The notes below the pieces were generated by a model that worked only from the letters and a program-made list of their open reading frames with translations, was not told the DNA's origin and searched no databases. Below are positions 5,633 through 60,860 of a DNA stretch of 64,000 bases, in pieces. The DNA lies in NCBI GenBank assembly GCA_033398695.1, contig CM065802.1, positions 152,134,096 through 152,198,095 on the forward strand, in the 5' to 3' direction. Origin of the DNA: Orobanche coerulescens (Eukaryota > Streptophyta > Magnoliopsida > Lamiales > Orobanchaceae). Every line of letters starts with the position of its first letter. Position 1 is the first letter of the stretch. The position numbers and the translations under genes are program-made.

Positions 5633-5815
5633 CAAGTGTGCCGCGGCGCACTAAACTTGTGCCGCGGCACAGGGCCTTCAGCTGGGTGCCTGGGCGTCTT
5701 TAATTTCTTCTGTGCCGCGGTTCACCTGGGCTGTGCCGCGGCACAGAGTACTGATTTACTCGCCTTTGGTGGTGTCTTCTGTGCCGCGCCCTGCTCCCTT
5801 GTGCCGCGGCTCATA
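5633..5815 (-). repeat. GTGCCGCGGCAC palindrome array in the A1 LTR
   Basis: Six or so copies or near-copies of the perfect palindrome GTGCCGCGGCAC stand at irregular spacing, separated by 20-40 bp of unrelated sequence. The open frame at 5636-5851 on the plus strand is just the translation of this array. Confidence 0.85.
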
Positions 5816-10193: not shown

Positions 10194-10269
10194 TGTTAGA
10201 TGTATTTTCGTGCGATTAATTATCATTATTTTATCTCCATTTTGTGTTTAAATCTGCATAAATGAGCTT

Positions 10270-14345: not shown

Positions 14346-14346
14346 T

Positions 14347-16390: not shown

Positions 16391-16499
16391 AGCTTTTAAT
16401 GCATTATGTTTATATGTTTTGAAGGAAATTAGAGTCTGGAAGCTTAAACGGAGAAAAACGGGCCAAAACGACAATTTTTGGTCAAGGGCCGCGTCACAT

Positions 16500-16680
16500 C
16501 GAGCCAAAGCCGCGGCACAGGCACACCCAGAAGCAAGCCGGTATAATCTGTACCGGGGACCGCGACACGTTCATTCTGAGCCGCGGCCCGTAAGGAAAAA
16601 GGCGCTCATGCCTGGCAGCACAAGGGCAAGGGCCGCGGCACACTTAAGCCGGGCCGCGGCCTGCGGCGCGGGCTCCTTGT
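16500..16680 (+). repeat. GCCGCGGC palindrome array in the A2 LTR
   Basis: Several GCCGCGGCAC / GCCGCGGCCCG units are spaced 20-60 bp apart directly upstream of the TATA box at 16760, as in A1. Confidence 0.75.
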
Positions 16681-20795: not shown

Positions 20796-21713
20796 ACAAA
20801 GCTTTTATCCGATCGATATACTTCCGAAAAATCACACAAGTATTTTTCTCTCCTTCTTTTCTCTCTTGTTTCTCTCTCTATGTGTATGTCTCTTAAGAAT
20901 GGTGAGAAGTGAGGAAATCCCGCAGGAAATCTGCCTAAAAGGGAACCCAAAAGCAGGGTTGACCCCGTGTGCCGCGGCCCGAACAGGTGTGCCGCGGCAC
21001 ACTCAGAAAAACTGCCCAGTAAATTCGCTGGGGGCCGCGGCCCGGCTGGCAGGGGTCGCGGCCCGTAGTACAGACGCGGTCGTGTGCTGTAGGAGGATTT
21101 TCGAGGGCCGCGGCCCGGCTGCCTTGTGTCGCGGCTCGGAGTGCAGAAACCTGGGGAGTCTTTTGCAAGGTGTAGTGCCGCGGCCCGGAGGATTTGTGCC
21201 GCGACCCGGAGTCCAGTCGACTCCGAAAATGCCTATATTTCGGAAATAACTCCCACACACGTATACCTATCACAAGCTTTCGATTCAGTCATTGACAATC
21301 CCTGAGTGAGATCCATGTGACGGAATCAAGGTGAGTCATGTTCGAGTATATATATATATATCCCATTAACATGTGCTCCCACTAACCCTTAGTGAAGACA
21401 GACACTCTACATATCAAAGTACACGTTATACAAGTCTTGTATAAACTTAGTGACCAATTAAGTTTTATCGACTTGCGAACCAATTAAGAATTCGAGCCCT
21501 AAACACTTCCAGTGCCTATTTCCTTATCTCCATAAGGAGTGGATTGTTTGCTCTCAACTGCAAGGACTAATATTTTATATATCAAATCACAATGTCTCTG
21601 GTATACAATAATATAGAAATAATATATGTCTTATTTAATATAATATTCATAATTACATACAATGTTCTCATTCTATCATCCTCTGAGTGGCATTCGAGGA
21701 CATATTCCTAACA
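20796..21713 (-). mobile_element. 5' LTR/leader of a Tnt1-like copia element (C2)
   Basis: In minus sense it starts TGTTAGGAATATGTCCTCG at 21713. It has a (TA)n/TATA stretch at about 21340-21360, then a GC-rich palindrome zone, then a purine-rich GAGAGAGAAACAAGAGAG leader, and runs into the truncated gag. I see no clean LTR 3' end or PBS; a deletion probably joins leader and gag. Confidence 0.55.
20965..21215 (-). repeat. GCCGCGGC palindrome array in the C2 leader
   Basis: About ten GTGCCGCGGCAC / GGGCCGCGGCCC-type units at irregular spacing. Here they lie downstream of the TATA-like stretch, unlike in A1 and A2. Plus- and minus-strand open frames here (20866-21273) are translations of the array. 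Confidence 0.8.
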
Positions 21714-25039: not shown

Positions 25040-25041
25040 AC

Positions 25042-25410: not shown

Positions 25411-26848
25411 ATGGCTGATTTTACTACCTCTATTGAGAAGCTCAATAACAACAATTATGGGTCATGGAGTACCCGTATGAAGTTTTACCTGCTCGGGCAG
25501 GACTTATGGGATATCGTGAACGGAGCTGAGACAACACCACCAAGGGAGGCCAAAAGCACAGACACAACCTCCGACATCTCAACCTCAACACCGGTACGAC
25601 CAGATGCTGCACATCAAAGGCCAGTTGCCGACCCTGATGCTTTAAAGAAATGGAAAGTTAAGGTAGGCAAAGCTATGTATGCCTTAATTGTAGCTGTAGA
25701 AGATGAATTTCTCCAGCGGATCAAAGATGCCCGAACACCGAAGGAAGCTTGGGATACATTGGCGGCTATTTTCGCTAGAAAAAATGATGCAAAATTGCAA
25801 AGGCTTGAAAATGATCTTTTGTCGATCTCCCAGAGAAATATGTCCGTGAGTCAATATTTCTCAAAGGTGAAATCTCTTTGTGACGTGATTTATAAACTAG
25901 ATCCTGAAAATGGCATTACACAAACCAGGATGAAAAGAATTATCATCCACGGATTGAAGCCGGAGTATAAGAGTATTATCACGACAACCCGGGACTGGGC
26001 CAACGAGCCAACTTTAGCAGATCTGGAGAATTTGCTAATTAATGAAGAGGATCTAGACAAACCCACATCTAGTCGACCAACCAATAGTGAAGAGACAGCC
26101 CTTTTCACTAATAGAAGAGACAATCAAGGATGCGGACGAGGACGCGGTCGTGGTCGAGGACGAGGACGTGGTTTCGGGAGATTCAATAGTCAAGAAAGAG
26201 ATGTTCGAGGAAACCAAGATAGAGGTTTCCAGTCAGGGGGAGCTCGAGGAGATCAACATAATCAAAATGGTCAGAACCGGTGGCAACAAAAGGATCGTCA
26301 AAGTGACGAATGTTTCAATTGCGGCAAGAAATGACATTATGCAAAAAATTGCTGGTCCAAGAGAGTTGAAGGAAATGCAGCAACAACATCTAAGGACAAG
26401 GCTCCAGGAGAAGAAGATTGGGATTTCGAGACTTCCTTCTATGCCGAGGAGGTAGATACTGCTGATACACGAGGGAAAGGCCCAAGAGAGGAATTCGCAC
26501 TTACTACGGTATGTGAGCAGTTAGTCGATTACAAGAATGATTGGATCGTTGACTCTGGTTGTTCCAATCATATGTCTGGAGATGAGTTGAAACTTGTAAG
26601 TATGACAAGTACAACGGAGATCGAGTTATTGTGACAGCTGATAACACACAATTACCAATAGCCCATGTTGGCAAGACACAACTGCCACAAAGGTACGGAC
26701 ATAAAGAAGTACAACTCAACAATGTCTATCATGTCCCAGGGATGAAGAAGAACCTGTTGTCAGTACCACAATTAACTGCTTCAGGTAATTATGTGTTGTT
26801 TAGCCCGAACGATGTGAAAGTGTATCGTTAATTGAAATTCATAGGTAC
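25411..26848 (+). pseudogene. C1 gag and protease part
   Basis: From ATG 25411: MADFTTSIEKLNNNNYGSW (copia gag N-terminus), a UBN2-type gag with EAWDTLAAIF and LSISQRNMSVSQYF, an Arg-Gly repeat (GRGRGRGRG), then the knuckle CFNCGKK-stop-HYAKNC. The TGA at 26332-26334 sits where the family has Gly. Protease DWIVDSGCSNHMSGD follows at about 26541. A frameshift near 26595 precedes VTADNTQLPIAHVGK and MKKNLLSVPQL. The frame is broken at 26848 by G1 and continues at 36440. Confidence 0.92.
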
Positions 26849-27867
26849 TGTAACACCCCGAGATATTCGGAATAATTACAGCGCCGTAAACCCTTTAGAT
26901 AAGGATTTACAAGGCTAATTTCAGAAGAAGTGTAAAAACAATACAATCGAACAACTGAAGTTCAAATACAGATTTGATTCAACCGATCAAATGAGTTAAC
27001 TTATACAACCATATCGAATTGACTTTATTAAAACAGACGTACTCGAGTACTAAACGAACCAAGAAGACAAATCACAATAACAATAACATCAATCACATCA
27101 CTGAGCCATTCCATCGTCCGCTTGTGCATCGTGGTTGCCTCCCCGCTCCTCGGCTACCTGAACATCAAAACAATGTCCACCCCCGAAGGGGTTAGCAAAA
27201 CAATGCTAGTACAAGTATCGTCAAACAATAAATCATCAATGCATCATAAAGCATGCAAAACGGACTTCCGCCACCGGAATCCAACGATGTGAATCCTCAC
27301 GATTCCATCAACACAATACAAGGTAATCCAAGATCCGGCTTCTCAAGATAGATCCCCATGATGATCCCGTCGGACCAACGCATGGTGGAAAACCCGTCCA
27401 ACGATCCAGCGCCCTCAGCATAGATCCCCATGATGATCCCGTCGGACCAACGCATGGTGGACATTCGATCCAGCGCCCTCAGCATAGATCCTCATGACCC
27501 CCCCTAGGATCATTTATACCATAACCGATCAATTATGCATACTCATATGCATTTTAAATGTTCATCAATACGAACAAACAACAACGAATATCACGAGAAT
27601 TATCATAAATACATCTCATATTCAATAATATGAACAAAACCACAAGCATGATAAATCGAACTCGACATATGATACTTGCCTTGAAAATGGCAAGGACGAA
27701 ACACTTCAATGATCTCGACCCACTCGAAGGCCGACTCCTTCGATCAACGTAACAAGCTCGGACCTTAACAAAGGAACGATATACAAATCATCTCAAGTCG
27801 AACGATGGCCTAACAATTCGGTCTACGGCCGAAAAGCTCAAAATAAACAATCTGCCTGGACTGCTTA

Positions 27868-28060
27868 GCGTGCGCTACGTACTCTACGTAACGTGCGCTA
27901 AGCCGGCCTGTTAGCGTACGCTATCGTGTAAGACTAGCGTGCGCTAGCTACGAACTGACAGTTCGAATCGGCTGATATATAACGTACGCTACGTACGTTC
28001 TGTGCGTTAACTGAACCCCGATAGCGCACGTTAACTCACATATGTTAGCATGCGCTACCC
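27868..28060 (-). repeat. TAGCGTGCGCTA palindrome array II in the G1 3' LTR
   Basis: Irregularly spaced TAGCGTGCGCTA and variants (ACGTGCGCTAA, TAGCGTACGCTA), downstream of the TATA box in LTR sense. The equivalent in the other LTR is 35118-35310. Confidence 0.85.
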
Positions 28061-28744
28061 TTGCATGGCAGAACACTGCTAACGGAAAAACTGGGTCGAA
28101 AGGTGGTGAATTCATGAATTCTATGACGATACAACAAGTCATCCTCAAGCATGTCATGCTAATAAGGTTTTGTGGAAGTTCCATGATCATGAGGTACAAA
28201 TATACGGATAATCAACTCAACATCATAACCTTATCTTCGATCTTCAAGAAATATTCTAAGTTCCGATTATTCCAAGTCCCAAAACATATGATTCCTTACG
28301 TAAAACATACGAACTAGGTAATCTCCGATTACTAACCATAAATCGATTTGAAAACTCTTAGGAGTTCATACTACTAAGATGGTTCAAAGGTTCATACGAT
28401 GAATAAGTGTCGAAACGTCGAAAATATCCTTCTAACATGTGATGACCGATCATAAACGAAATAACTGGCTATCTAAACATGATCAGACGTCCTTAAGAAC
28501 ATTACTAACATTGGTGAAGAATCACCTACCTCAAGTAGTGAAGAACACGGAGGAAAATGAAGCAATCCGACACCGAAAGCTTGAACACCAATCTCCAATG
28601 ATATACGATCTTCAATCACGAATCAGGATGTTGATATGAAGTGTTTGGGGTGAAGGAAGTTATGTTATAAGTGTAGGAATTCGGGTAATGAGAGTAGAGA
28701 GAATTGAAATCATGAATAGGATGCTGTCCTATTTATAATAAATG

Positions 28745-29045
28745 GCTATTAGCGCGCGCTAGACCGTGTTCGTAGCGTGCGCTAACGGCTCACAGTCTAA
28801 ACTGTACTAGGCACTTAGCGTGCGCTACGCATATACTTGTAGCGTGCGCTAAGGCATTGACTCGGCTTTTCCCGAAAGCCGTCCAGGTACATCCGACACG
28901 ATCCGACAGGGGTCCCCCGGCCAGATCTCACCTACCGCACGTCTCAATCAAATTGACCGTGCCTAGCGTGCGCTAATGACCCTCTGTAGCGTGCGCTATG
29001 AATCTACGTTAGCGCACGCTAAACACATCCGATAGCGTGCACTAT
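28745..29045 (-). repeat. TAGCGTGCGCTA palindrome array I in the G1 3' LTR
   Basis: About nine units just upstream of the TATA box. The equivalent in the other LTR is 35995-36292. Confidence 0.88.
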
Positions 29046-29243
29046 ATGCGCAGATTTACAATCTTTAAATCACAACCATGCAATTAAACGCTCGACAACA
29101 TCGGACTATGAAATACGGAGAATAGTACTCAGACAAAAGTACAATTATTACAATATCACAAGTTCCAATTACATAGAAATCTCGGGTATTACATCCTTCC
29201 TCCCTAAAAAGAAGTTTCGTCCCGAAACTTAAGATAAAAACAA

Positions 29244-32200
29244 CTACGGATATCTAGTCTTCATACTGTCCTCCGTTTCCCAAGTGGCCTCTTCGACTCC
29301 ATGTCGTGACCATTGTACTTTAACCAAGTGTATTGGTTTATTCCTCAATTGTTTGATCCGGCTCTCAAGTATCTTGATTGGTCTTTCTTCGAAGGTGCCA
29401 TCATTAGCTATTTCGATCTCGTCGAAATCAATGACGTGACTGGGGTCCGGTACATACTTCCGCAATTGGGATACGTGAAACACATTGTGAACGTGACTCA
29501 GCGATGGTGGTAAGGCCAACCTGTATGCTAAATCTCCCACTCTCTCGAGGATCTCGAATGGTCCGATATATCTCGGACTAAGTTTGCCTCTCCTCCCAAA
29601 ACGGAAAATTCCTCGTGTAGGAGACACCTTCAATAGTACATGGTCTCCTGCGTCGAACTCTAAAGGGCGACGACGTACATCTGCATAAGACTTCTGTCGA
29701 CTCTGGGTAGTCAACAGTCTCTCTCGAATCGAAGCTATCTTCTCTTGAGTCTGAATAATCAATTCCGGTTCCGTCCCGATCAAATCCGAAGAATCATCCC
29801 AACACAGGGGGGATCGGCATCTTCTCCCGTATAAAGCTTCAAATGGGGCCATCTTAATAGAAGCATGCCAACTGTTATTATAGGTGAACTCGATCAAGGG
29901 CAAGTGAACTTCCCAATCAGTCGACCAATCTAATGCACAAGCTCTAAGCATGTCTTCTACTGTCTGTATAGTTCTTTCAGACTGACCATCCGTTTGGGGA
30001 TGATAAGCTGTGCTAAAGTTGAGCTCAGTCCCCAAAGCCCTGTGAACTGCTTTCCAGAAATGTGACACGAAACGACCATCTCGATCCGAAATAATGGTCT
30101 TCGGCGTCCCGTGCAATCTGACTATCTCCGCAATAAATATTCGTGCCAATCTCTCGGGTCCTCATGTATCTTTAATTCCCAGGAAATGAGCCGACTTGGT
30201 TAGTCGATCAACTACAACCCAAATCATGTTCATTCCCGTTCTAGTCCTTGGCATACTCGTGATGAAATCCATCGAGATATCTTCCCACTTCCATTCAGGG
30301 ATCGGAAGCGGCTTTAACATTCCGGCAGGTCGTTGATGTTCAATCTTAACCTGCTGACAAGTCAAACACTTCGAAACGTACTCCGCTACGTCCTTCTTCA
30401 TATTCCCCCACCAGAAGTTTTGCTTTAAATCTTTATACATCTTACTACTGCCTGGGTGAATAGAATAGGGCGCGCTATGAGCTTCCTTTAAAATTGTCCG
30501 TCTCAAATCATCATCCTCGGGAACGCAGAGTCGACTCTGAAATCTCAGAACCCCATCATCTTGTATCACGAATCCTGGGGCTTTTCCTTTCTTTACTTCG
30601 TCACATAATCGAAGGATCAGGGAATCGTTCAGTTGTTTAGACTTGATCTCCTCGACTAGTGATGAAGTCAGTTCCATCACATAAAGTTGCCCTTGGATTC
30701 CTGGTGCCCATACCTCAATCCCCTCGCGGATCAGTTCTCGTTGAATACTGGTTTGGGACGTAAGTGCTTCCAACACTCGAAGAGAAACAGGTTTACGGCT
30801 CAAAGCATCAGCTACTACGTTTGCTTTCCCCGGATGATAGAGAATCTCCAAGTCGTAATCCTTGATCAATTCCAGCCACCTTCTCTGCCTCATGTTTAAT
30901 TCTTTCTGACTGAAGATGTACTTGAGGCTCTTATGATCTGTAAAGATCTGACAATGAGTGCCGTACAAATAATGTCGCCAAATATTCAAGGCAAAGACCA
31001 CAGCTGCTAGCTCCAGATCATGAGTCGGGTAATTAATCTCGTACGGTTTCAATTGCCGAGAGGCATAAGCAATCACTTTATCCTTCTGCATCAACACACA
31101 ACCCAAACCCCGATTCAAGCGTGCTGTATACCATAAATCCATCGGTTCCCTCTGCGGCGCTAATATAGGTCTTGTCGTCGGTCTCCTCTTAAGTTCGTCA
31201 AAACCCGCCTGGCACTTCTCATTCCACATGAATTTTTGAGTTTTCTGTAACAGCTGGGTGAGCGGACGAGCAATTTTGGAAAATCCTTCTACAAAGCGGC
31301 GATAATATCCAGCAAGTCCTAAGAAGCTTCGGACCTCTTTCACGTTTTTAGGAGCTTCCCAATCCAAGATTGCTTCGACTTTCTTCGGGTCCACCTGAAC
31401 TCCGTCGGCTGATATCACATGCCCAAGGAAAGTTACTTCCTTAAGCCAAAACTCGCATTTTGAAAATTTTGCATACAGTTGTTCCTTCCTCAAGGTGCTT
31501 AAAACCACACGTAAATGTTCAGCATGTTCCTCTGTGTCCCTCGAATATATCAGGATGTCGTCAATGAAGATGACCACAAATTTATCCAAGTATTCCAAGA
31601 ATACCCGATTCATCAATTGCATGAATACTGCAGGAGCATTGGTAAGTCCAAATGGCGTTACTACAAATTCATAATGCCCGTACCGGGATCTGAAAGCAGA
31701 TTTCGGTATATCCGATTCCTTAATTCTCAACTGGTGGTATCCTGATCGCAAGTCAATCTTCGAGAATACCCTTGCCCCTTGCAGTTGATCAAACAAGTCA
31801 TCGATCCGAGGTATAGGATACTTGTTCTTGATTGTCATCTTATTGAGTTCCCTGTAATCAATACACAGTCGGAGGGATCCGTCTTTCTTTCGGACAAAAA
31901 GAACGGGCGCTCCCCAAGGAGAAACACTAGGTTGGATATAGCCCTTCTGTAACAATTCCTCCAGTTGCTTCTTGAGTTCATACATCTCGGTTGGCGCCAT
32001 GCGGTATGGTGCTCTGGAAATAGGAGCTGCTCCAGGCTCTAATTCGATAGTGAATTCCACTCCCCTCTGCGGAGGTAACCCAGGTAGTTCGTCAGGAAAT
32101 ACATCTGAGAACTCATTCACAACTGAAATAGATGAGAGCTCTACTCCTTCCTCTTTCCTCATGGCATAGCACCAAAGTCCGTGACATCCCTGCTTCAGTA

Positions 32201-33860
32201 ATTTCACAGCTTTCATTGCCTTGATCAATTTTCCCGAGCTTCCCGGTCTCCATCCCCGGAATAAGTATTCAGATCCGTCATCAGCAATGATGGAAATGAC
32301 TCTCTCTCGGTAATTCAGCACAGCTCCATGACGGTTGAGCCAATCATCTCCGAGAATTAAATCGTCACCGTAGATGTCAACTACAATAAGAACCGATGGC
32401 CAATCTCTTCCTTCTATAGATACTGGGAAATCCTTGGCTTCTAGTGTTCCCACAATTTTCTCTCCGCTCGGTAATCCCACAACATAAGGTTCACAATTAT
32501 ACAAGCACGAGATTTTCAAACGATTAACACAGTTCAAAGATATAAAAGAATGCGTAGCTCCCGAGTCGAACAAGACACTAACTGGTTGCAAAAGGATCTG
32601 AATCGTACCTGATGCAACAGCTGTGTTCTGATCGTCAGATTTCCTCATTTCGTACAGGCGTGGAGGAACGGACCCAGCACTGGATGCCTCTCTCTTCCCA
32701 GCGTTCTGCTGCTGAAATCCACTTTGCTGCGTCTGGTTCACACTCGTCTCCTTCGGGACTGGAGATGGAGTGCGAGTACCAAAAGATCGGGTCGCATTTC
32801 CACAAAACGTTGCGCGATGTCCTTCCTGTCCACACTCGAAACAGGTCACAGCAGGCACGAAACAATCACGTCGAACATGCCCCGCCTTGCCACAGTTGTA
32901 GCACTTCTTTCCTGCGTCTAAAACAGTCGGTGCTGCCCGGAACTTCTTTCCACCTCGAGAAGGATGCGGAGGTCTCCTGGATGAATGAAAAGAGGACTGA
33001 CCCTTGCGAGGTCCGCTACTCTTATCCTCCGTGAAGTTGCCAGACACCTTCTGTTTCTTTGCTTCCGTCGCTTTCTCTACTGCTGCCTCCTTCATATCAT
33101 AGGCCAACGCCTTGTCCTGATACTGTCGCAAGGTGGTACATTCAAATCCGGACATATACTGCTGAATTTCCGGCTTCATTCGCATGTCAAAATGAAAAAT
33201 CTTCTCCGCCTCGGTCCTGACCAAGTGGCGCACATAAGTCAGCTGGTGATTGAAAGACTTAATCACGTCCGTCACAGATGCTTCCGAATTTTGTGGTGAG
33301 AAAAACTCCCGAACTCGGGCTTCTCTAACTGGGCGAGGACAATACTGCGCCTCCATCATCAATTTGAATTCCGTCCAGTCAACATTGTGCTCCTCCGGTC
33401 GGATGGCCTCCCACCAGTCGAAAGCCTCCCCGGTCAAAAGATACTGGGCGACCGGAACCTTCCTATCGTTGGGACAGTTTATCCCCGCAAAAATCTTCTC
33501 TAATTCCTTCAGCCAATGATCCCACGAAAGCGTCTCAGCGGAACCGTCAAATTTCGGAGGATGCAATTTGACCACCTCGGTAAGCCATTTATCTCCCCGA
33601 TTATCCACGTTGTTCTGCTGTCCCATCGCCGTCTGCATGTGATCCACAACTTGAGCAAACCGGTTTATTTGGGCAACCACCTGCTGAAGCACTCCCGGCA
33701 CGTTAGGATCTGCATTATTATTTGCCGATCCCTGCTGTCCCCCGGAATGTGAATCCATTTGACTAGCGGCTATCTCTGGAGTAGATACCGACTCTTCTTG
33801 CCTCGCATTTCCACGTCCGCGCCCACGACCGCGTCCGCGTCCACGACCTCCTCTCAACAT
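29244..33860 (-). pseudogene. G1 gag-pol polyprotein with one in-frame TGA
   Basis: I chose the start [13 protein letters not shown] (ATG 33858-33860); an upstream ATG at 33893 adds 11 unlikely residues. In order: Arg-Gly tail, retrotransposon gag ([21 protein letters not shown]), two zinc knuckles ([28 protein letters not shown], about residues 320-350), protease [13 protein letters not shown] (about 430), RT with [16 protein letters not shown] and [10 protein letters not shown] (about 765), RNase H with THDLELAAV and [11 protein letters not shown], integrase zinc region ([11 protein letters not shown]…[11 protein letters not shown]). A TGA at 30162-30164 interrupts the integrase; the equivalent G3 codon is Trp. 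The same frame continues to 29244 with ISDRDGRF, YHPQTDGQSERT and a C-terminal chromodomain (LVKVQWSRHGVEEATWE). The RNase H catalytic Asp region is out of frame over 31112-31158. Confidence 0.93.
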
Positions 33861-34082
33861 ACTGTAAACATAAATACTCAATATCCAGGACAAACTTTCT
33901 CAAAGTACATCCATCAATGTTTACAAGACATGAATTAAATAAAACAGTAGTATTCGAGATTAGGAAACTTACAACCACAGTCCACACGACGATGCGGGCT
34001 CAGCAGTGATGTTACGAACGACCAATAATCAATAACGTAATGCACCCAACTAACCCTACTGCCAAGATATCCATAAATCTTA

Positions 34083-34094
34083 GCTCCGATACCA
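34083..34094 (-). other. Primer-binding site of G1
   Basis: In minus sense TGGTATCGGAGC, 5 bp after the 5' LTR end. It is of tRNA-Met type. Confidence 0.85.
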
Positions 34095-34099
34095 TATTC

Positions 34100-36439
34100 T
34101 GTAACACCCCGAGATATTCGGAATAATTACAGCGCCGTAAACCCTTTAGATAAGAATTTACAAGGCTAATTTCAGAAGAAGTGTAAAAACAATACAATCG
34201 AACAACTGAAGTTCAAATACAGATTTGATTCAACCGATCAAATGAGTTAACTTATACAACCATATCGAATTGACTTTATTAAAACAGACGTACTCGAGTA
34301 CTAAACGAACCAAGAAGACAAATCACAATAACAATAACATCAATCACATCACTGAGCCATTCCATCGTCCTGTCGGTACTGTGGTTGCCTCCCCGCTCCT
34401 CGGCTACCTGAACATCAAAACAATGTCCACCCCCTAAGGGGTTAGCAAAACAATGCTAGTACAAGTATCGTCAAACAATAAATCATCAATGCATCATAAA
34501 GCATGCAAAACGGACTTCCGCCACCGGAATCCAACGATGCGAATCCTCACGATTCCATCAACACAATACAAGGTAATCCAGCGATCCAGCGCCCTCAGCA
34601 TAGATCCCCATGATGATCCCGTCGGACCAACGCATGGTGGAAAACCCGTCCAACGATCCAGCGCCCTCAGCATAGATCCCCATGATGATCCCGTCGGACC
34701 AACGCATGGTGGACATTCGATCCAGCGCCCTCAGCATAGATCCTCATGACCCCCCCTCGGATCATTTATACCATAACCGATCAATTATGCATACTCATAT
34801 GCATTTTAATATGTTCATCAATACGAACAAACAACAACGAATATCACGAGAATTATCAGAAATACATCTCATATTCAACAATATGAACAAAACCACAAGC
34901 ATGATAAATCGAACTCGACATATGATACTTGCCTCGAAAATGGCAAGGACGAAACACTTCAATGATCTCGACCCACTCGAAGGCCGCCTCCTTCGATCAA
35001 CGTAACAAGCTCGGACCTTAACAAAGGAACGATATACAAATCATCTCAAGTCGAACGATGGCCTAACAATTCGGTCTATGGCCGAAAAGCTCAAAATAAA
35101 CAATCTGCCTGGACTGCTTAGCGTGCGCTACGTACTCTACGTAACGTGCGCTAAGCCGCTCGTTAGCGACGCTATCGTGTAAGACTAGCGTGCGCTAGCT
35201 ACGAATCGATTCAATCGGCCGATATATAACGACGCTACGTGCGTTACGTGGCGTTAATCAACCCCGATAGCGCACGTTAACTCACATATGTTAGCGTGCG
35301 CTACCCTTGCATGGCAGAACACTGCTAACGGAAAAACTGGGTCGAAAGGTGGTGAATTCATGAATTCTATGACGATACAACAAGTCATCCTCAAGCATGT
35401 CATGCTAATAAGGTTTTGTGGAAGTTCCATGATCATGAGGTACAAATATACGGATAATCAACTCAACATCATAACCTTATCATCGATCTTCAAGAAATAT
35501 TCTAAGTTTCGATTATTCCAAGTCCCAAAACATATGATTCCTTACGTAAAACATACGAACTAGGTAATCTCCGATTACTAACCATAAATCGATTTGAAAA
35601 CGCTTAGGAGTTCATACTACTAAGATGGTTCAAAGGTTCATACGATGAATAAGTGTCGAAACGTCGAAAATATCCTTCTAACATGTGATGACCGATCATA
35701 AACGAAATAACTGGCTATCTAAACATGATCAGACGTCCTTAAGAACATTACTAACATTGGTGAAGAATCACCTACCTCAAGTAGTGAAGAACACGGAGGA
35801 AAATGAAGCAATCCGACACCGAAAGCTTGAACACCAATCTCCAATGATATACGATCTTCAATCACGAATCAGGATGTTGATATGAAGTGTTTGGGGTGAA
35901 GGAAGTTATGTTCTAAGTGTAGGAATTCGGGTAATGAGAGTAGAGAGAACTGAAATCACGAATAGGATGCTGTCCTATTTATAATAAATGGCTATTAGCG
36001 CGCGCTAGACCGTGTTCGTAGCGTGCACTAACGGCTCACAGTCTAAACTGTACTAGGCACTTAGCGTGCGCTACGCATATACTTGTAGCGTGCGCTAAGG
36101 CGTTGACTCGGCTTTTCCCGAAAGCCGTCCAGGTACATCCGACACGATCCGACAGGGGTCCCCCGGCCAGATCTCACCTACTGCACGTCTCAATCAAATT
36201 GACCGTGCCTAGCGTGCGCTAATGACCCTCTGTAGCGTGCGCTATGAATCTACGTTAGCGCACGCTAAACACATCCGATAGCGTGCGCTATATGCGCAGA
36301 TTTACAATCTTTAAATCACAACCATGCAATTAAATGCTCGACAACATCGGACTATGAAATACGGAGAATAGTACTCAGACAAAAGTACAATTATTACAAT
36401 ATCACAAGTTCCAATTACATAGAAATCTCGGGTATTACA
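34100..36439 (-). repeat. 5' LTR of G1
   Basis: 2340 bp with the same layout as the 3' LTR: array I 36292-35995, TATA 35974-35983, array II 35310-35118, tandem repeat 34740-34583. The two LTRs differ by scattered substitutions, small changes in the palindromes and a short replaced segment near 27112-27131 / 34371-34381. Confidence 0.95.
35974..35983 (-). promoter_or_regulatory. TATA box of the G1 5' LTR
   Basis: TATAAATAGG in element sense, directly after palindrome array I. The 3' LTR equivalent is 28728-28737. Confidence 0.65.
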
Positions 36440-43675: not shown

Positions 43676-44030
43676 CGTAGCGCACGCTACGGCCGGAAGG
43701 TAGCGCACGCTACGGCCGGGAGGCAGCGCACGCTACGGCCAGTTAGCTGCGCGCGCTAGTCGGCCGAGACAGTAGGGGCAGAGAGGTTCTGGACTCGGGT
43801 GGATCGGCAGGTAGCGCACGCTACTGTCGGACACTGCGCACGCTACGACCGGCAGGTAGCGCACGCTACGGTTGGAAGGCTGCGCACGCTACGGTTGGAA
43901 GGCTGCGCACGCTACGGTTGGAAGGCTGCGCACGCTACCTGGCCGAGCAGTCTAGTCCAGGAAGTCTCTGGATTGCGGCCCGGGCCGTTAGCGCACGCTA
44001 GCTCGGCATCCTAGCGCACGATAGGCTGCA
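43676..44030 (+). repeat. TAGCGCACGCTA palindrome array in the G2 5' LTR
   Basis: At least a dozen TAGCGCACGCTA / TGCGCACGCTA units, separated by spacers with CGGCCGGAAGG- and GGTTGGAAGG-type words. Plus-strand open frames here (43422-44014), with repeated ARYG/HAT residues, are translations of the array. Confidence 0.9.
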
Positions 44031-44034
44031 CCAG

Positions 44035-44045
44035 TATAAATATGG
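44035..44045 (+). promoter_or_regulatory. TATA box of the G2 5' LTR
   Basis: TATAAATATGG, a few bases after the last palindrome. Confidence 0.65.
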
Positions 44046-46225: not shown

Positions 46226-46313
46226 GCCAGGTTGTGGAAACCTAGACTGTCGGGTTTAGTGATGTCTGTTGAGTTTTTGTCTCATCAGATTTTGTCTGAA
46301 TGAGTGGTGTCGC

Positions 46314-48297
46314 TGTAACACCCCCAAGTTATTCAGGGAATATTACAGCGCCGTAAGCCCCACCGTGGGACCCACAAGGCTAAACATACGTGGAACTATA
46401 AATTTTGACCGAGAAGGTCTACATACAATGGAATGAAGAACAATACAAAGGGTATTCAAAACATATCCAATGTATCTAAAGACATCACAACACAAATCGA
46501 TACCTCGGCAAACACAGGCCGGAACATAAAGGAAAATGAAAACAATACTCGAGTAACCATTCCAGTACAACAACACTGAATGGAGAAAACTCAAAACATA
46601 ACCGGAGGAAAGACATAGTATCACACTTGCCCATCATCTTCATGCCGACCCGATACCTGCCTGTCCGCTATCCTGGAACCTGAAATACATAAAAAGTATT
46701 TCCCCCATAAAGGGGTTAGCCGTCGAATAGCTAGTGCAAGTATATCAAGTATGAAACACAATACTCCTCGACAATAAAGTAAAGGTAACCGTCAATTCAT
46801 CAATTCAAGACTAGTATTCCGGAATAACTAAATCTCATAGCATCACAACAATGCATACATGATCAACCATGGAACCGCACCAAAGGCTACGGAACCCTCA
46901 GGGGACCCGTCAGTCCGCCCCAGAGTGGTTAACCCAAATTATCCGTGGAATCGCACCAAAGGCTACGAAACCCTCAGGGGACCTTGTCGGCCCGCCCCAG
47001 AGTGGAGATAAATAAACATGCCATTCATATATCTTACTTTCAAAGTCGAGAACGTACAATCATAAATATATACATGCCTTTGAGACATCGTGAAATTGAA
47101 CGAAAAAGAGTATGAGTTCGGTAGGTCTAAGAACGCGCTTCCCACACCTAAATGATCCGTAAGGGATATGATAATCAATAATCTATACTCATAATTCACG
47201 AAGAAACTCCCAAAACCCGTCTACCATTCACGAAAATACACGGGTAAACAACTAGAGGTTGGAAAATCGCCCAAACTCTCACAAGTCTGAAAACGGCACA
47301 ATCAAATCCGTAAAATCATAGGAAAAGCATGAATATGGAATAGATACATCATAATATCAAGGTTCTCAAGCTTCAAAATGGATAAATCGGACGAATCTAG
47401 GAAAATCCCCAAAATTCCCAAAAATAGGGTTCTAAGAATTTTTACCTTAATTTGGACGTTAGGATGGATTAGATGTTGTGAAATCCTTGTTCTCCAACCA
47501 AATATGTTGTTGTTTGACGAAGAATCGCTTCCAATCGCCCAAAATCGTCTCTCCCAAGCTGCTCCCGTTGGAAATGAGTGAAGAGGATGAAAAATGACGA
47601 AATGGAAGTCAACTGTCCAATATATATCCGCCCAGTCTAGCGCACGCTACGCTTCCTTCATTAGCGTGTGCTAGCGAGGTCACCGGGTAGTCCAATGACT
47701 TCTGTCGGCCCCGTTAGCGTGCGCTAATCTCCTTTCTCTAGCGTGCGCTAGCCAAAAAGTGGCGTCCAGTAACTGGAGTCCAGAACCTACTGTCCTCTGC
47801 CCTGCTCAAGCCTTAGAGTGCGTTATGCAACAACTTTAGCGTGCGCTAGCCGAAGCCTAGCGTATGTTACCTGATAGTCCAGAAAACCTGACAACCTCAC
47901 TGCCTCTGCCGACCAGCCCGCTAGCGTCCGCTACGGACGGATGTTAGCGTACGCTACTAACCACGAATAGCGTGCGCTAACAAAGTCCTAGCGCGCGTTA
48001 ACCGCCAGTCCAGAGAGCAGTCCGAGTTACTGGTTCTGACCTGACTGGTCCCTTAGCGCGCGCTACGGCTCAAGGCTAGCATGCGCTACTCAAGCATAAT
48101 TAGCGTGCGTTAGCCTAGGCCTAGCGTGCGCTATTTCTCCGACCCAGGACATTTCCGCAAGGTCTAAACAACACGATTGTGATCCAAACAAGATATGAAG
48201 CTCTATAACAATATCTACAACATCACCAAGAGTTTACAGAGCGACGAAATAAGAAAAACGGCAAGGCCAAACAGTCAATAAAAGTACGGGTATTACA
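46314..48297 (-). repeat. 3' LTR of G3
   Basis: 1984 bp. It carries a palindrome array (48135-47636), a TATATAT box (about 47620-47628) and a tandem pair of about 72 bp (46868-47004). It has lost about 24 bp of one palindrome pair near 47817 relative to the 5' LTR. Confidence 0.95.
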
Positions 48298-48332
48298 TTC
48301 TCCCCCTCTAAAAAGAAGTTTCGTCCCGAAAC

Positions 48333-51300
48333 TTAAGAAATAAAAAGTTCGGGGTACTCCGACCGTATCTTCTCTTTCGTTTCCCAAGTCGCCTCTTCGA
48401 CTCCATGTCTCGACCATTGCACTTTAACCAGTGGAATGGTCTTATGCCAAAGTTGTTTCTCGCGACGCTCAAGGATCTTCACGGGTCTCTCCGGAAAGGT
48501 AATATCCTCGGCTACGTCAATCTCACTATAGTCGATAACGTGACTCCGATCCGATACGTACTTTCTCAACTGAGACACATGAAAAACACTATGAATGTAA
48601 CTCAAAGCTGGAGGTAACGCCAAGCGATACGCCAAATCTCCAACCCTGTCTAAGATCTTGAAAGGTCCGATATACCTTAGACTAAGTTTCCCCTTTTTCC
48701 CGAAGCGGAAAACCCCTCTGGTTGGCGACACCTTGAGTAATACATGATCCCCCACTTCGAACTCCAAGGGTCGAGTACGAGTGTCAGCATAAGATTTCTG
48801 ACGGCTCTGGGCAGTCCGCAATCGGTCCCAGATTATGGAAATTTTTTCCTTAGTCTCCATCAACATATCCGGTTCCGTTCCAATTAGTTCTCAAGCCTCG
48901 TCCCAACATAATGGCGACCTACATTGCCTACCATAAAGTGCCTCGAATGGTGCTATTTTAATCGACGCATGCCAACTATTATTATAGGCAAACTCGATCA
49001 ACGGTAAGTGAAGTTCCCAATCATTACTCCAGTCTAAGGCACAACTTGCAACATATCTTCCAATGTCTAGATCGTCCTATCTGTCTGACCATCCGACTGA
49101 GGATGAAAGGAAGTGCTCAACCTCAACTCGGTACCCAAAGCCTGATGAACGGCCTGCCAAAAATGCGATATGAAACGACCGTCTCGGTCAGAAACAATGG
49201 TCTTGGGGGCACCGTGCAATCTTACGATCTCAGCTATAAAAGTTCAAGCCAATCTATCCGGTCCCCAAGTATCCTTAATACCCAAGAAGTGTGCAAACTT
49301 GGTCAACCGATCGACGATTACCCAAATCATATTCATCCCGGCCCTAGTTCTCGGCATGCCAGTGATGAAATCCATAGAGATGTCTTCCCACTTCCACTCG
49401 GGAATGGGGAGCGGCTTCAACAACCCCGCTGGTCGTTGATGTTCGATCTTGACTTGTTGACACGTCAAGCACCGTAGTACAAATTCCGTGACATCCTTCT
49501 TCATGTTGTTCTACCAAAAATTTCGTTTCAAGTCCTTATACATCTTACTCGTTCTGGGGTGGATTGAGTAAGGCGTAGCATGGGCTTCTCGGAGAATTCT
49601 CTGCCTCAACTCTAGATCATTCGGAACACAAAGCCTGCCTTGAAATCTCAGAATACTATCCTCGTGAACCATAAAGCCACGAGCTTTTCCTTTAATTACA
49701 TCTTTCTTCAGTTGATAAATCATCGGGTCACTCCACTGCTTCCATTTGATGTCGTCAACCAAGGACGAAGTAATTTCGAGAGTACACAACTGTCCCTGTA
49801 CTCGTTGAAGCCAAACTTCTATCCCTTGATCAATTAATTCCTGACAAATTTTCGTCTGAGATGTAAGAACCTCGTGCATTTGAAGAGATGCCGATTTGCG
49901 GCTCAAAGCATCTGCGACGACATTGGCTTTTCCAGGGTGGTAAAGAATTTCCAAATCGTAATCCTTTATCAACTCTAACCAACGTCTCTGTCTCATATTC
50001 AACTCTTTCTGACTGAAAATATACTTCAGGCTCTTGTGATCGGTATAAATCCGACACGGAGAACCATACAAATAATGCCGCCAAATCTTGAGTGCGAAGA
50101 CAATTGCGGCCAATTCCAAATCGTGAGTAGGATAATTCATCTCATACGGCTTTAGTTGTCGTGACGCAAAAGCTATCGTCTTATCATGCTGCATAAGCAC
50201 ACAGCCAAGACCTTGTCCCGAAGCGTCACTATAAACTGCAAAGCCCTCACTACCATGTGGTAAAGTTAAAATCGGCACTGAAGTCAAACGCCTCTTCAGC
50301 TCATCGAAGCTCTGTTGTCTCTCATCTGACCAAACAAACTTTTCGGCCTTCTGGAGTAATTTCGTAAGCGGCCGAGCGAGTTTTGAGAATCCCTCGACAA
50401 ACTGACGGTAATACCCATCAAGTCCCAAAATGCTACGAATTTCCTTAACATTTTTAGGCGGTGCCCAACCTAGCACTGCCTCAATCTTCTGCGGGTCTAC
50501 ATGAACCCCTTCGGCCGAAATCACATGGCCGAGAAACATAACTTCTTCCAACCAGAACTCACATTTTGAGAATTTTGCATAGAGGTGCTCGGTTCTCAAA
50601 ATATCTAGTACCAAATGCAAGTGTCGGGCGTGTTCTTCCTTATCTCGAGAATAGATCAAAATGTCATCAATAAAGACGACCACACACCTATCAAGATACT
50701 CGATGAAAATCTTATTATTTAACTGCATGAATACCGCCGGTGCATTAGTCAACCCAAAAGGCATAACTACAAATTCGTAATGCCCATATCTCGTCCGAAA
50801 TGCCGTTTTCGGAACGTCGGACTCTCTCACCCTGAGTTGATAATACCCCGATCTTAATTCAATCTTCGAGAAAACTGCAGCCCCCTGTAACTGATCAAAT
50901 AAATCGTCTATGCGAGGCAAAGAGTATTTGTTCTTGATGGTTACTTTTTTCAGCTCACGGTAGTCGATGCACAAACGTAGTGAACCATCCTTCTTCCTTA
51001 CGAAAAGTACAGGCGCGCCCCAAGGCGAAGCGCTCGGTCTGATGTACCCTCTTTACAGAAGTTCTCCCAACTGATTATTTAATTCTTGCATCTCGGAAGA
51101 TGCCATTCGATAAGGTGCCTTAGAAATCGGAGCCGCATCTGGCTCTAAGTCCACAGAAAATTCTATCTCCCGATCTGGCGGTAATCCCGGGAGATCGTCC
51201 GGAAAAATATCGGGATACTCATTAACAACCGGGATCAAAGAGAAATCGACTTCGTTCCCTTCCGTTTTCAAGGCATAACACCAATAGCCCGTACAACCTT

Positions 51301-52962
51301 TATTCAAAAATTTTACGGCCTTCATGGCGCTGATAAGTAACTTGGATTGGCCCGATTTACATCCCAAAAATGAGTACTCGGTTCCGTCTTTAGTACGGTA
51401 ATTCATAATTGCTTGGTGACTATCAAGCCAATCCTCGCCTAGGATCACGTCCTCGCCTACCATATCTACTATAATCAGATTCAATAACCATTCCATACTG
51501 GATATAATCACCGGAAAATCTTTAATCTCCCGGTTTCCCACAATTCTATCCCCGCTAGGTAGTTTCACAATGAAGGGATCGCAAGCAGTCATACAAGTTA
51601 TATTCAAACGGCGTACACACTCCAAGGAAATAAAAGAATGCGTAGCACCCGTATCAAAAAGCACACTGACTGGATGAGATAAAATATTAATGGTACTTGA
51701 AGCCACTGCTGCATCGGGTTCGTCTGATCGACACATCTCATAGACCCGTGGTTGTACCGAACCGATGCTAGAGTTCCCCCCTCCAGCGTTCTGAACCCGT
51801 CCCCGTCCCCTGCCGTAACTCTACTGAGATTGACCAAAAGATTGCCGCTGATTAACGCCTTGGTCAAGTGGTGCTGGGGCAGAATCCCGAGTGTCCAAAG
51901 TCTGATTTGGTTCGGAACAATAAGCCGCTCTATGTCCCATCTGTCCGCAAGTGTGACACTTCAACGGCGGAAAGTTGCACTCCAAATTAACATGGCCTGG
52001 ACGGCCACAATTATAGCAAGTTACCGTGCGATTTGTGGTGCCCGGAGTAGAACGAAAACCACTCTTTCCTTTAGCAGAACGTGACGATTGCCCGGTAAAA
52101 CGGTTAGTCATCTGTGACCTTTGGAAATTGCCACTCTTAAAGACAGAAAAATTCCCCGCAACCTTCTGCTTCTTCGATTCTTCAATGACATCGTTTTTGG
52201 GGCTTAACATATCATGGGCTAAAGCTCTGTCCTGATACTCTTTCAGTGTGGTGCAAGCAAATCCGGCCATGTACCGCCGTAAGTCCAAATTCATCCACAT
52301 ATCAAAATAACGGATCTTATCACGCTCGTTCCGCACTTGATCCTTCACGTGGATCAGTTGTTGGTTGTACTCTACAATTGCCTGCGAAACAGGAATATTC
52401 TGCGGTTTAGCCTCGAAAAAGGCTCGGATTCGGCCCTCTCGCACCGGCAAGGACAAAACTCTGCCTCCAAAAGCTCCTTAAATTCATCCCACGTGGCAAC
52501 ACGATCCTGTGGCTTGATGACTTTCCACCATGTAGCGGCCTCCTTAGTGAGGAAATACTGGGCAATCGGTACTTTCCTCACTTCGGGGTAATCGACCGCT
52601 TCAAAAATTTTCTCCAACTCCTTTAGCCAATCTTACCAACCTAACGGGTCTGTGGCACCGCCAAACTGTGGAGGGTGCATACGGATCACATTCTGAAGCA
52701 AGGCATCCGCGTTCGGATTCAAATTATTCAGTTGAACGGTTTGGGCTAAAATGGTCATCTGGTTAGCCAGTTGTTGAAGTACATTCACAACTCCAACGTC
52801 CGCGCTGTTCCCCTAGCCAGTCGACTGGTCGTGCTGACTTTCAGTGTTAGGATGCACCGAGTTCGACAAACTGGGGTTGGTCGACCCCGCAACAGAACTG
52901 ATGGAAACGGTCGCGCCACGACCTCTTCCACGTCCACGGCCACGGCCCCTACCAACTGACAT
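48333..52962 (-). pseudogene. G3 gag-pol pseudogene
   Basis: From ATG 52960-52962 ([12 protein letters not shown]). Gag pieces (WWKVIKPQDRVATWDEFKELL; FACTTLKEYQDRAL); zinc knuckles CYNCGRPGHVNLEC and CHTCGQMGHRAAYC; protease [15 protein letters not shown] ([26 protein letters not shown]); RNase H with [15 protein letters not shown] and [10 protein letters not shown]; integrase zinc region and WGPDRLA; and a C-terminal chromodomain (VQWSRHGVEEATWE). A frameshift lies in gag (about 52400-52450). From there to 49244 one frame persists, interrupted by stops at 51821, 51053 and about 49505. Another shift precedes 48866. The order and length match G1, but it is clearly dead. Confidence 0.93.
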
Positions 52963-53215
52963 ACTGAAGAACACACAAGGCTTGTGAGTATAATTCAATC
53001 GCACGTCATCAAAGTGACCCATTCTAAAGAATACCAAAATAGAAGCAAAACGAATAAGAAAACACCAGAAGAGTAAGAGGTCTTACAAGTACAGGTCGCA
53101 CTGTGATGATGGCAGAGTAGTGATACTATGGACAAATGACGACTCATTCGACCCAAAAGACCGACAGCCTAGGTATCCATAGACCTAAGCTCTGATAACA
53201 TATTCTGTAACACCC

Positions 53216-55209
53216 CCAAGTTATTCAGGTAATATTACAGCGCCGTAAGCCCCACCATGGGACCCACAAGGCTAAACATACGCGGAACTATAAATTTTGA
53301 CCGAGAAGGTCTACATACAATGGAATGAAGAACAATACAAAGGGTATTCGAAACATATCCAATGTATCCAAAGACATCACAACACAAATCAATACCTCGG
53401 CAAACACAGGCCGGAACATAAAGGAAAATGAAAATAATACTCGAGTATTCAATAACCATTCCAGTACAACAACACTGAATGGAGAAAACTCAAAACATAA
53501 CCGGAGGAAAGACACAGTATCACACTTTCCCATCATCTTCATGCCGACCCGATACCTGTCTGTCCGCTCTCCTGGAACCTGAAATACATAAAAAGTATTT
53601 CCCCCATAAAGGGGTTAGCCGTCGAATAGCTAGTGCAAGTATATCAAGTATGAAACACAATACTCCTCGACAATAAAGTAAAGGTAACCGTCAATTCATC
53701 AATTCAAGACTAGTATTCCGAAATAACTAAATCTCATAGCATCACAACAATGCATACATGATCAACCATGGAACCGCACCAAAGGCTACGGAACCCTCAG
53801 GGGACCCGTCGGTCCGCCCCAGAGTGGTTAACCCAAATTATCCGTGGAATCGCACCAAAGGCTACGAAACCCTCAGGGGACCTTATCGGCCCGCCCCAGA
53901 GTGGAGATAAATAAACATGCCATTCATATATCTTACTTTCAAAGTCGAGAACGTACAATCATAAATATATACTTGCCTTTGAGACATCGTGAAATTGAAC
54001 GGAAAAGAGTATGAGTTCGGTAGGTCCAAGAACGCGCTTCCAGCACCTAAACGAATCATAAGGGATATGATAATCAATAATTTATACTCATAATTCACGA
54101 AGAAACTCCCAAAACTCGTCTACAATTCATGAAAATACACGGGTAAACAACTAGAGGTTGGAAAATCACCCAAACTCTCACAAGTCCAAAAACGGCACAA
54201 TCCAATCCGTAAAATCGTAGGAAAAGCATGAATATGGAATAGATACATCATAATCTCAAGGTTCTCAAGCTTAAAAATGGATACATCGGACGAATCTAGG
54301 AAAAACCCCAAAATTCCCAAAAATAGGGTTCTATGGATTTTTACCTTGATTTGGATGTTAGGATGGATTAGATGTTGTGAAATCCTTGTTCTCCAACCAA
54401 ATAAGTTGTTGTTTGATGAATAATCGCCCAAAATTGTCTCTCCCGAGCTGCTCCCGTCAGAAATGAGTGAAGAGGATGAAAAATGACGAAATGGAAGTCA
54501 ACTGTCCAATATATATCCGCCCAGTCTAGCGCACGCTACGCTTCCTTCATTAGCGTGCGCTAGCGAGGTCACCGGGTAGTCCAGTGACTTCTGCCGGCCC
54601 CGTTAGCGTGCGCTAATCTCCTTTCTCTAGCGTGCGCTAGCCAAAAAGTGGCGTCCAGTAACTGGAGTCCAGAACCTACTGTCCTCTGCCCTGCTCAAGC
54701 CTTAGCGTGCGCTACCGCTATGGCTTAGCATGCGTTATGCAACAACTTTAGCGTGCGCTAGCCGAAGCCTAGCGTATGTTACCTGATAGTCCAGAAAACC
54801 TGACAACCTCACTGCCTCTGCCGACCAGCCCGCTAGCGTGCGCTACGGATGGATGTTAGCGTACGCTACTAACCACGAATAGCGTGCGCTAACGAATTCC
54901 TAGCGCGCGTTAACCGCCAGTCCAGAGAGCAGTCTGAGTTACTGGTTCTGACCTGACTGGTCCCTTAGCGCGCGCTACGGCTCAAGGCTAGCGTGCGCTA
55001 CTCAAGCAGAATTAGCGTGCGTTAGCCTAGGCCTAGCGTGCGCTATTTCTCCGACCCAGGACACTTCCACAAAGTCTAAACAACACGATTGTGATCCAAA
55101 CAAGATATGAAGCTCTATAAAAATATCGACAACATCACCAAGAGTTTACAGAGCGGCGAAATAAGAAAAACGGCAAGGCCAAACAGTCAATAAAAGTACG
55201 GGTATTACA
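53216..55209 (-). repeat. 5' LTR of G3
   Basis: 1994 bp with the same layout as the 3' LTR: array 55050-54527, TATATAT box 54507-54517, tandem pair 53905-53768. Confidence 0.95.
54527..55050 (-). repeat. TAGCGTGCGCTA palindrome array in the G3 5' LTR
   Basis: I count nine exact TAGCGTGCGCTA, one exact reverse form and about six one- to three-base variants in about 520 bp, with irregular spacing. Spacers repeatedly contain GTCCAG. The array ends about 10 bp before the TATA box in LTR sense. Confidence 0.92.
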
Positions 55210-60439: not shown

Positions 60440-60860
60440 CTAGAGTATGCTAGCCTTCCCGAACTAGCGTGCGCTATCGGCCAGTATCGGCCCAGCACCC
60501 TCGGCCAGGGCCCGCACGACCCGGCACTACCGACCAAACCTGCCGACCGCGACCTGTCCGCCCGACCCCGATAGCGTGCGCTGTGCCTGACGCTAGCGCG
60601 CGCTAGCCGACCTGTCCAGTAACCTCTGGATTAAACAGCTCGCCCAGGTAACGTACGCTAGTCGGCCGACAGCGTGCGCTACACATGCCGATTAGCGCGC
60701 GCCACGACCGACAGTAGCGTGCGCTACCTATCGATCCTCCCCGAGTCCAGAACCTCAGAACCCCTCTCTCCAGACCCGATAGCGTACGCTGGGCCGGTCG
60801 ACAGCCTGCACCTGCCGAGCTAGCGCGCGCAGCCTTCCGGCCGTAGTGTGCACTACGCCG
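60440..60860 (-). repeat. TAGCGTGCGCTA-type palindrome array in the solo LTR
   Basis: Diverged units (TAGCGCGCGCTA, TAGCGTGCGCT, TAGCGTACGCT, ACGTACGCTA) directly upstream of the TATA element in LTR sense. Confidence 0.8.

Follow-up and report, generated by a model that had tools for sequence, protein, structure and literature searches.

In the window, by which we mean the whole 64,000-nucleotide stretch of Orobanche coerulescens DNA analysed here, eight of the nine open reading frames of at least 250 aa have Pfam matches, all of them to LTR-retrotransposon families. Two Ty3/gypsy elements, G1 and G3, carry RVT_1, RT_RNaseH and RVP_2 (some relatives are named Ty3-gypsy) and have LTRs of 2.3 and 2.0 kb respectively, with the ends TGTAATACCC...GGGTGTTACA, TGTAATACCC standing at the start. 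Besides these there are the 5′ LTR of G2, a solo LTR related to it, two Athila-like elements (A1 and A2) and a Ty1/copia fragment identified by Pfam (C1). In A1 a PPT-like stretch and the LTR start are visible, and an open reading frame at 3905-4750 has no Pfam match. Arrays of 12-bp palindromes lie in the LTRs or, for C1, upstream of gag (Table 1). The first-pass annotation had placed such arrays in several unrelated LTR families. There are indeed several families, but G2 and the solo LTR belong to one, A1 is homologous to A2, and the two Ty3/gypsy elements G1 and G3 have internal regions that can be aligned.

Table 1. Palindrome arrays, TATA sequences and full-length elements in the window
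Feature	Positions	Strand	Details
G2 5′ LTR, U3 array	43676..44030	+	12 units TAGCG-NN-CGCTA (up to 3 mismatches allowed), mostly 22-23 bp apart
G2 TATA box	44035..44043	+	11 bp past last unit; unit starts at -23, -46
G1 5′ LTR, U3 array	35995..36292	-	8 units; TATAWA 35983; unit starts at -24, -47, -90, -114, -238...
G1 3′ LTR, U3 array	28749..29046	-	Layout as in 5′ LTR; TATAWA 28737
G1 5′ LTR, second array	35119..35303	-	680-864 bp downstream of TATA
G1 3′ LTR, second array	27866..28057	-	680-871 bp downstream of TATA; rearranged relative to 5′ LTR
G3 5′ LTR, U3 array	54527..55050	-	17 units, partly in four-unit blocks with CTGGACT-bearing spacers; TATAWA 54515
G3 3′ LTR, U3 array	47638..48138	-	TATAWA 47626
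Solo LTR (related to G2), U3 array	60440..60860	-	TATAWA 60428
A1 (Athila-like), GTGCCGCGGCAC array	5633..5815	-	Pairs 20-21 bp apart; TATAWA 5542, 95 bp past last unit
A2 (Athila-like), array	16484..16664	+	Three pairs 21 bp apart; TATAWA 16760, 97 bp past last unit
GCC-word array upstream of Ty1/copia gag (C1)	20967..21209	-	Four pairs 20-21 bp apart
G1, Ty3/gypsy element	26848..36439	-	LTRs 26848-29193 and 34099-36439, 97.7% alike
G3, Ty3/gypsy element	46313..55209	-	LTRs 46313-48297 and 53205-55209, 94.9% alike

Two further kinds of repeat were seen in the window. A 2,048-bp repeat (9394-11441 and 14344-16391, 97.5% alike) joins a truncated A2 array, with one exact core in each copy (9437 and 14387), to other sequence that has a 34-bp tandem duplication (9472-9543 and 14422-14493). 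A pair of 315-bp repeats (24727-25041 and 39315-39629) resembles the LTRs of a copia element into which G1 has inserted; these contain neither the TAG nor the GCC word defined below, are low in CpG and provide a natural array-free control.

By scoring for exact matches to the two words of the window we find both to be far more frequent than in shuffled sequence. TAGCGNNCGCTA occurs 49 times, compared with 0.01 expected. The great majority of these matches (43, a count that takes in both LTRs of G1 and of G3) sit between the LTR start and TATA in the U3 arrays of G1, G2, G3 and the solo LTR, and the remaining six form a second array in G1, downstream of TATA. The other pattern, GCCGCGGC, is found 15 times compared with 0.21 expected, with four matches in A1, four in A2, five in the array beside C1 (20971-21184), which is absent from the first-pass annotation, and the others in the truncated A2 copies. 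In the 3.65-Gb genome TAGCGNNCGCTA matches at 1,320,899 places and its reversed control at 3,402, and GTGCCGCGGCAC at 101,126 places against 26 for its reversed control. A systematic sample of 24 loci of 10 kb each (L010-L033, 240 kb; 20 on C2 and four on C1 in the numbering of the sampled sequences) yielded two more palindromic words, TTACGNNCGTAA and TAACGNNCGTTA. TTACG-NN-CGTAA was present 28 times in the first 200 kb of the sample, where about none would be expected, and the TAG word was present in seven of 20 sampled loci. There are thus four words overall, all palindromic: TAGCG-CA-CGCTA (TAG), TTACG-GC-CGTAA (TTA), TAACG-TA-CGTTA (TAA) and GTGCCGCGGCAC (GCC). The enrichment over controls confirms the palindrome arrays as a feature of the genome, on a larger scale than first described. 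The gypsy elements with the TAG word are putatively of the chromovirus/Tekay lineage; their Ty3/gypsy domains and LTR ends are observed.

The array beside C1 stands somewhat apart. Sequence from 21700 to 21258, in the upstream part of C1, is 87–89% like an abundant copia LTR (40 scored among 8438 candidates), the array is absent from the five copies of that LTR that were compared, and in one of the five the pol sequence is only 45% like that of C1 over 60 aa. Given copies that lack the array and a pol so little alike, the array may lie in C1's own LTR or may adjoin a truncated foreign LTR. On the same grounds we rejected C1 as a clean third lineage. A junction lies near 21258. No TATAWA sequence was found within 400 bp downstream of this array.

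Counting units with up to three mismatches, neighbouring units of the TAG word in the window are 21–24 bp apart in 34 of 50 cases and those of the GCC word 20–21 bp apart in 10 of 17, the other gaps being mostly 41–55 and 63–65 bp. Exact words in the genome behave in the same way: among the matches listed, 37 of 43 TAG distances below 30 bp are 23–24 bp, and 14 of 16 GCC distances are 20–21 bp. Neighbours less than 160 bp from each other in the sample stand 20–24 bp apart in 125 of 212 cases. Such spacing does not bear out the initial description of the arrays as irregular. The accompanying statement that spacers are not conserved holds for G1, G3 and A1, where spacer identity is near the null value, but not for G2, where it is 0.61 compared with a null of 0.38; it is somewhat above the null in the solo LTR (0.43 versus 0.37), C1 (0.44 versus 0.33) and A2 (0.38 versus 0.26, sd 0.09). 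G2 is locally a 23/46-bp tandem repeat, and Tandem Repeats Finder (TRF) reports 43677-43938 as a 23-bp repeat of 11.6 copies. We also looked for helical phasing among neighbour distances of 30 bp or more. R was 0.41 at 10.8 bp, compared with a null 99% point of 0.31; since related arrays repeat the same distances, we do not claim phasing.

The TATA positions of the first-pass annotation were reproduced within 10 bp. In the window elements TATA lies 456–1002 bp after the LTR start, with the arrays in between. The position directly upstream of TATA that had been ascribed to the arrays does not apply to the second G1 array, 680–871 bp downstream, which had not been reported. The last unit precedes TATAWA by 11–12 bp in G1, G2, G3 and the solo LTR (in the last of these the nearest unit is mutated and the last exact unit is 36 bp away), but by 95 bp in A1 and 97 bp in A2. 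Two sampled GCC clusters, both in L026, have no TATAWA within 150 bp, and the link to TATA is weak for the GCC word.

For the other three words the link extends beyond the window. Among 28 sampled clusters of at least three TAG, TTA or TAA units, chosen regardless of TATA, 19 are flanked on one side by a TATAWA no more than 50 bp away, where about 3 would be expected from a rate of 0.054 per side at random points; nine have none within 50 bp. For exact TAG units, 30 of 188 sides have TATAWA within 80 bp, with a gap of 11–12 bp in seven of the 30 and of 34–35 bp, corresponding to the next unit of the same arrays, in five. Across the genome the combination TAGCGNNCGCTA-N11-TATAWA is found at 39,878 places and its reversed control at seven, whereas simple arithmetic from the sampled background rate of TATAWA predicts about 2,850. 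Units mostly follow each other every 23–24 bp and TATA lies about one step further on. In several TAG-word arrays the same layout recurs, with units 23/24, 46/47, 97–101, 120–124, 143–147 and 165–170 bp before TATA; in the TTA- and TAA-word arrays of L014, L024 and L028 the corresponding distances are about 26, 49, 67, 90, 141 and 164 bp.

We compared 31 arrays from the window and the sample (304 kb, that is the 24 sampled loci and the window), each with at least four units and one unit within 60 bp of TATAWA, and grouped them by single linkage of the sequence downstream of TATA into 15 families; this choice of arrays by their distance to TATAWA favours a register. In nine of the 15 families units are found both at −22 to −27 and at −45 to −51 relative to TATA. 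Taking one array from each of the nine, spacer identity is 0.31 and 0.32 compared with a null of 0.30 and 0.29 (135 and 24 of 500 shuffles, respectively, reach the observed value), while unit identity is 0.82 and 0.75 against a null of 0.24. The unit values are partly built in, as units were found by their resemblance to the words, but the spacer values are not. With the units masked, U3 still aligns in three of 105 family pairs, and the shared layout may therefore in part reflect inheritance. Our main result is that word and place recur between families while the remaining sequence is close to saturation. The earlier expectation that conservation concerns the words and their position relative to TATA, not the spacers, is thereby borne out, as is the view that this is no ordinary tandem repeat, whole-unit conservation being local and confined to G2.

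Comparison of related LTRs indicates how the arrays evolve. In the LTR pairs of G1 and G3, palindromes in the U3 arrays have changed at 6 of 276 positions and spacers at 9 of 515, and five of the six palindrome changes fall at CpGs. Change to about the same extent would be expected after insertion, when copies are presumably no longer under selection, and lends no support to the reading put forward below. When G2 is compared with the solo LTR, divergence is greatest in the array, with differences at 39 of 146 palindrome positions, 88 of 193 spacer positions and 186 of 1309 in the remainder. Spacers of the downstream G1 array differ between its two LTRs at 16 of 103 positions, compared with 28 of 1858 outside arrays. 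The arrays thus change rapidly, yet the units in them persist.

Each TAG unit contains two CpGs, which are among its well-kept columns, although conservation of these columns is partly built in because units were found by resemblance to the word. Within the LTR pair of an element, CpG sites have diverged more than the remaining sites. CpG observed/expected is high elsewhere in the LTR as well as over the arrays, and in the 240-kb sample, which is rich in retrotransposon arrays, the usual loss of CpG is not seen. A non-palindromic sequence, CTGGACT, also accompanies the arrays. It is the top-ranked non-palindromic 7-mer in the sampled arrays (27 occurrences in 8.9 kb compared with 14 in the other 231 kb), and 15 of its 18 occurrences in the window are in or beside arrays, both LTRs of an element being counted. 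It is common to arrays of several families, often shortly before the palindrome block (43789, 54578, 5815 and 21210), and precedes the first GCC unit of the A1 and C1 arrays too.

The units are not fully symmetric. We scored the centre, in the sense of TATA, of 111 exact TAG units from the window and from sampled arrays whose nearest unit starts no more than 30 bp from TATAWA. It is CA in 73, TA in 14, TG in 12, CG in 11 and GA in one, in keeping with the predominance of CA in element sense noticed at the outset. Among the sampled TAG clusters, 11 combine three or more CA/TG units with a TATAWA no further than 50 bp away, and in ten of these CA points to TATA; one of the ten (L020, 2601-3424) is flanked by TATA on either side. 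The orientation rule fails at L031 8214-8372 and L027 9185-9383. In four window LTRs 32 one-sided mismatches, some of them from duplicated G2 units, divide into 25 in the 5′ arm and seven in the 3′ arm, and a single pair is compensated. Permuting arms within arrays gave a mean of 403.6 (sd 4.4) paired positions out of 500 compared with 412 observed, 201 of 5000 permutations being at or above this value. Pooled over the 240 kb, with families mixed, symmetric pairs do exceed mixed ones (102 + 62 versus 16 + 23 at arm position 3, 136 + 29 versus 19 + 19 at arm position 2). The suggestion that the palindrome itself is what is kept thus stands between families, where all four words are palindromic, but not inside arrays, where changes in one arm are hardly compensated in the other. 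The bias towards CA, the asymmetry of the arms and their weak co-variation suggest that sequence is recognised more than base pairing as such, apparently by a dimer that reads it with some directionality.

Based on these observations, we suggest that the arrays are probably promoter-proximal upstream activating sequences in U3. Each 12-bp palindrome would be bound by a homodimer of a sequence-specific DNA-binding protein, probably a transcription factor of the host, and the sites would be stacked mostly every 23–24 bp (20–21 bp for the GCC word), with TATA often about one step past the last site in families with the TAG, TTA or TAA word. Dimers bound in such a stack would stand at a constant spacing from the basal transcription machinery and may recruit it. 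Arrays would grow by local tandem duplication, the spacers then drifting to saturation, and selection would act through transposition, copies with intact sites and register being those that keep transposing. The differing words of different families could be sites of different, or differently specific, dimers. Of the candidate transcription-factor families BZR, NAC, LBD and FAR1, each would fit some word and none fits all, and we dropped them.

Other origins for the arrays were considered. One is a plain decayed satellite, a 23-bp tandem repeat grown by slippage in which palindromes survive by chance, and the TRF repeat and the similar spacers of G2 are of this kind. However, families whose spacers are hardly more alike than shuffled sequence have words at matching positions ahead of TATA, which argues that the arrays are not merely a decayed satellite; about the same step is found in three words, and the genome holds tens of thousands of TATA-phased places. 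As a sole account a satellite is thus unlikely, indeed highly improbable in our estimate, and slippage remains as a mode of array growth. We give still less credence to DNA structure as the thing kept, be it a cruciform or a target for nesting insertion. In its favour, besides four words that are all palindromic, the doubly changed palindrome TAACGNNCGTTA is found at 91,867 places in the genome (control 2,843), where the frequency of the singly changed TAACGNNCGCTA (148,214 and 149,054 on the two strands, controls 1,358 and 1,317) would predict about 16,700 if arms changed independently. Yet this excess mixes families and nearly vanishes within arrays, where arms hardly co-vary, and the cruciform first envisaged is not upheld. 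In general, 5-bp arms around a non-palindromic CA centre make poor cruciforms. Palindromes at plant LTR insertion sites are described, in the passages of PMC6911290 drawn on here, as weak overall and not significant for Tekay.

Two further possibilities involve silencing or its avoidance. In one, a protein of the host or the element would recognise the CpG palindromes and either shield the promoter from DNA methylation or mark it for methylation, in the manner of the VANC system of VANDAL transposons; we consider this unlikely, although several observations are consistent with it. All four words contain symmetric CpGs, GC content is about 0.52–0.69 in 150-bp windows over the arrays compared with mostly 0.25–0.5 in flanking windows, and CpG observed/expected is 1.00 across the 240-kb sample. 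VANC targets, too, are short arrayed non-coding motifs that change between families (passages of PMC5735166). On the other hand, as far as these passages go, VANC motifs are not tied to a TATA box, and G1 has no obvious element-encoded binder, its interior containing only gag-pol pieces among frames of at least 250 aa and its 5′ LTR only ATG-initiated frames of up to 107 aa. Alternatively, U3 transcripts may fold into hairpins that feed small-RNA production, a role already proposed for the palindromes of maize Sireviruses, the arrays being a by-product or target of silencing. RNAs of seven arrays do fold more stably than their dinucleotide-shuffled versions (z −2.0 to −5.5, although for three of the seven, three or four shuffles folded as well as the real sequence), and small RNAs gather on the palindrome clusters of maize Sireviruses (as described in passages of PMC10760457). 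In five arrays, however, folding was about the same when palindromes were kept and spacers shuffled (z −1.4 to 0.7) and weaker when palindromes were scrambled (z −1.9 to −5.7), so little beyond the palindromes appears to be arranged for folding. A hairpin could form without a 23-bp step and at any distance from TATA, and the weak co-variation of arms speaks against an RNA role as well, which we judge to be quite unlikely. Since arms hardly co-vary and folding comes mainly from the palindromes, dimeric protein sites fit better than selected hairpins or cruciforms.

Taken together, the arrays are a real, functional-looking and genome-wide feature, most likely a TATA-linked lattice of dimeric activator sites. 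More tentatively, they may represent a promoter code shared by the LTRs of several Ty3/gypsy families and perhaps a Ty1/copia element, with interchangeable palindromic dimer sites on a 21–24 bp lattice that is locked to TATA for three of the four words, an accessory CTGGACT box, and words that diversify as dimer specificities or through an arms race. If so, the exact sites, at least 1.5 million in one genome, would rank among the largest homotypic target sets of any host DNA-binding protein, and should the binder prove to come from the host, over a million sites would compete with its normal targets. A lattice with TATA near its next step predicts one DNA-binding protein per word and a fixed geometry of recruitment, and a loss of activity on shifting one step. 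Such arrays could also be of use in orienting LTRs and locating promoters where annotation is lacking. To our knowledge the U3 promoters of plant Ty3/gypsy elements are little understood, though such elements fill large genomes.

Searches elsewhere gave little. We found no report of palindrome arrays in Ty3/gypsy or Tekay LTR promoters in the open-access literature (titles, starts of abstracts and some passages), and among the matches listed there for six array words (titles and starts of abstracts) was no plant-promoter paper. A reverse transcriptase (RT)-based scan of IMG/VR found no relative. In IMG/VR contig L001 (12696-12730) TAGCGTGCGCTA and TAGCGCACGCTA lie 23 bp apart, a single pair that we take as coincidence; the contig is G+C-rich and gives the impression of being phage or bacterial rather than plant, and the pair is probably an operator or due to chance.

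The first-pass annotation knew of no named system of this kind, but one exists among Sireviruses. Bousios et al. (2010) described palindromic RM boxes in 13 of these elements, clustered upstream of TATA and, in the passages of PMC2829016 on which we draw, with no known binder. They number 8 to 32 copies per element and lie mostly in the upper half of the LTR, where they form CpG islands shortly upstream of TATA. As in our arrays, they are palindromic and repeated, and their words differ between elements whose remaining sequence has diverged. Copy number is similar, since 24 of the 31 TATA-linked arrays have 8–18 units (one deviation from the word allowed), counted here per array and not per element, and so is the position in the upper LTR ahead of TATA. 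There are also clear differences. RM boxes belong to Ty1/copia elements and were regarded by their authors as specific to Sireviruses relative to classic Ty1/copia, whereas G1 and G3 are Ty3/gypsy. The RM core is CGG-CCG, which is absent from the TAG, TAA and GCC words and is contained, as CGGCCG, only in the TTACG-GC-CGTAA form. The same passages of PMC2829016 give neither a step length nor a TATA register, both of which are found here. For maize, Bousios et al. (2016) reported palindrome clusters in the cis-regulatory part of Sirevirus LTRs with siRNA evidence (as described in passages of PMC10760457); those are copia elements with small-RNA evidence, whereas the arrays described here are sequence features of gypsy elements.

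Likenesses extend to two other systems. VANC target arrays are, according to passages of PMC5735166, non-coding arrays of short motifs in the same orientation that evolve as tandem repeats and change between related elements; they differ in belonging to DNA transposons (VANDAL) with their own binding protein and in having a non-palindromic motif, YAGTATTAY. Repeated, sometimes symmetric activator sites also occur in plant LTR promoters, box I of Tnt1 among them (as mentioned in PMC2829016). The activator boxes of plant LTRs in general comprise two or three motifs per array in that account, whereas up to 18 units are found here, and compared with boxes of the Tnt1 type there are several words, a fixed step and more than a million genomic copies. 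Palindrome arrays upstream of TATA were thus already known from Sireviruses; what is new here is their presence in Ty3/gypsy hosts, the use of several words and a register locked to TATA.
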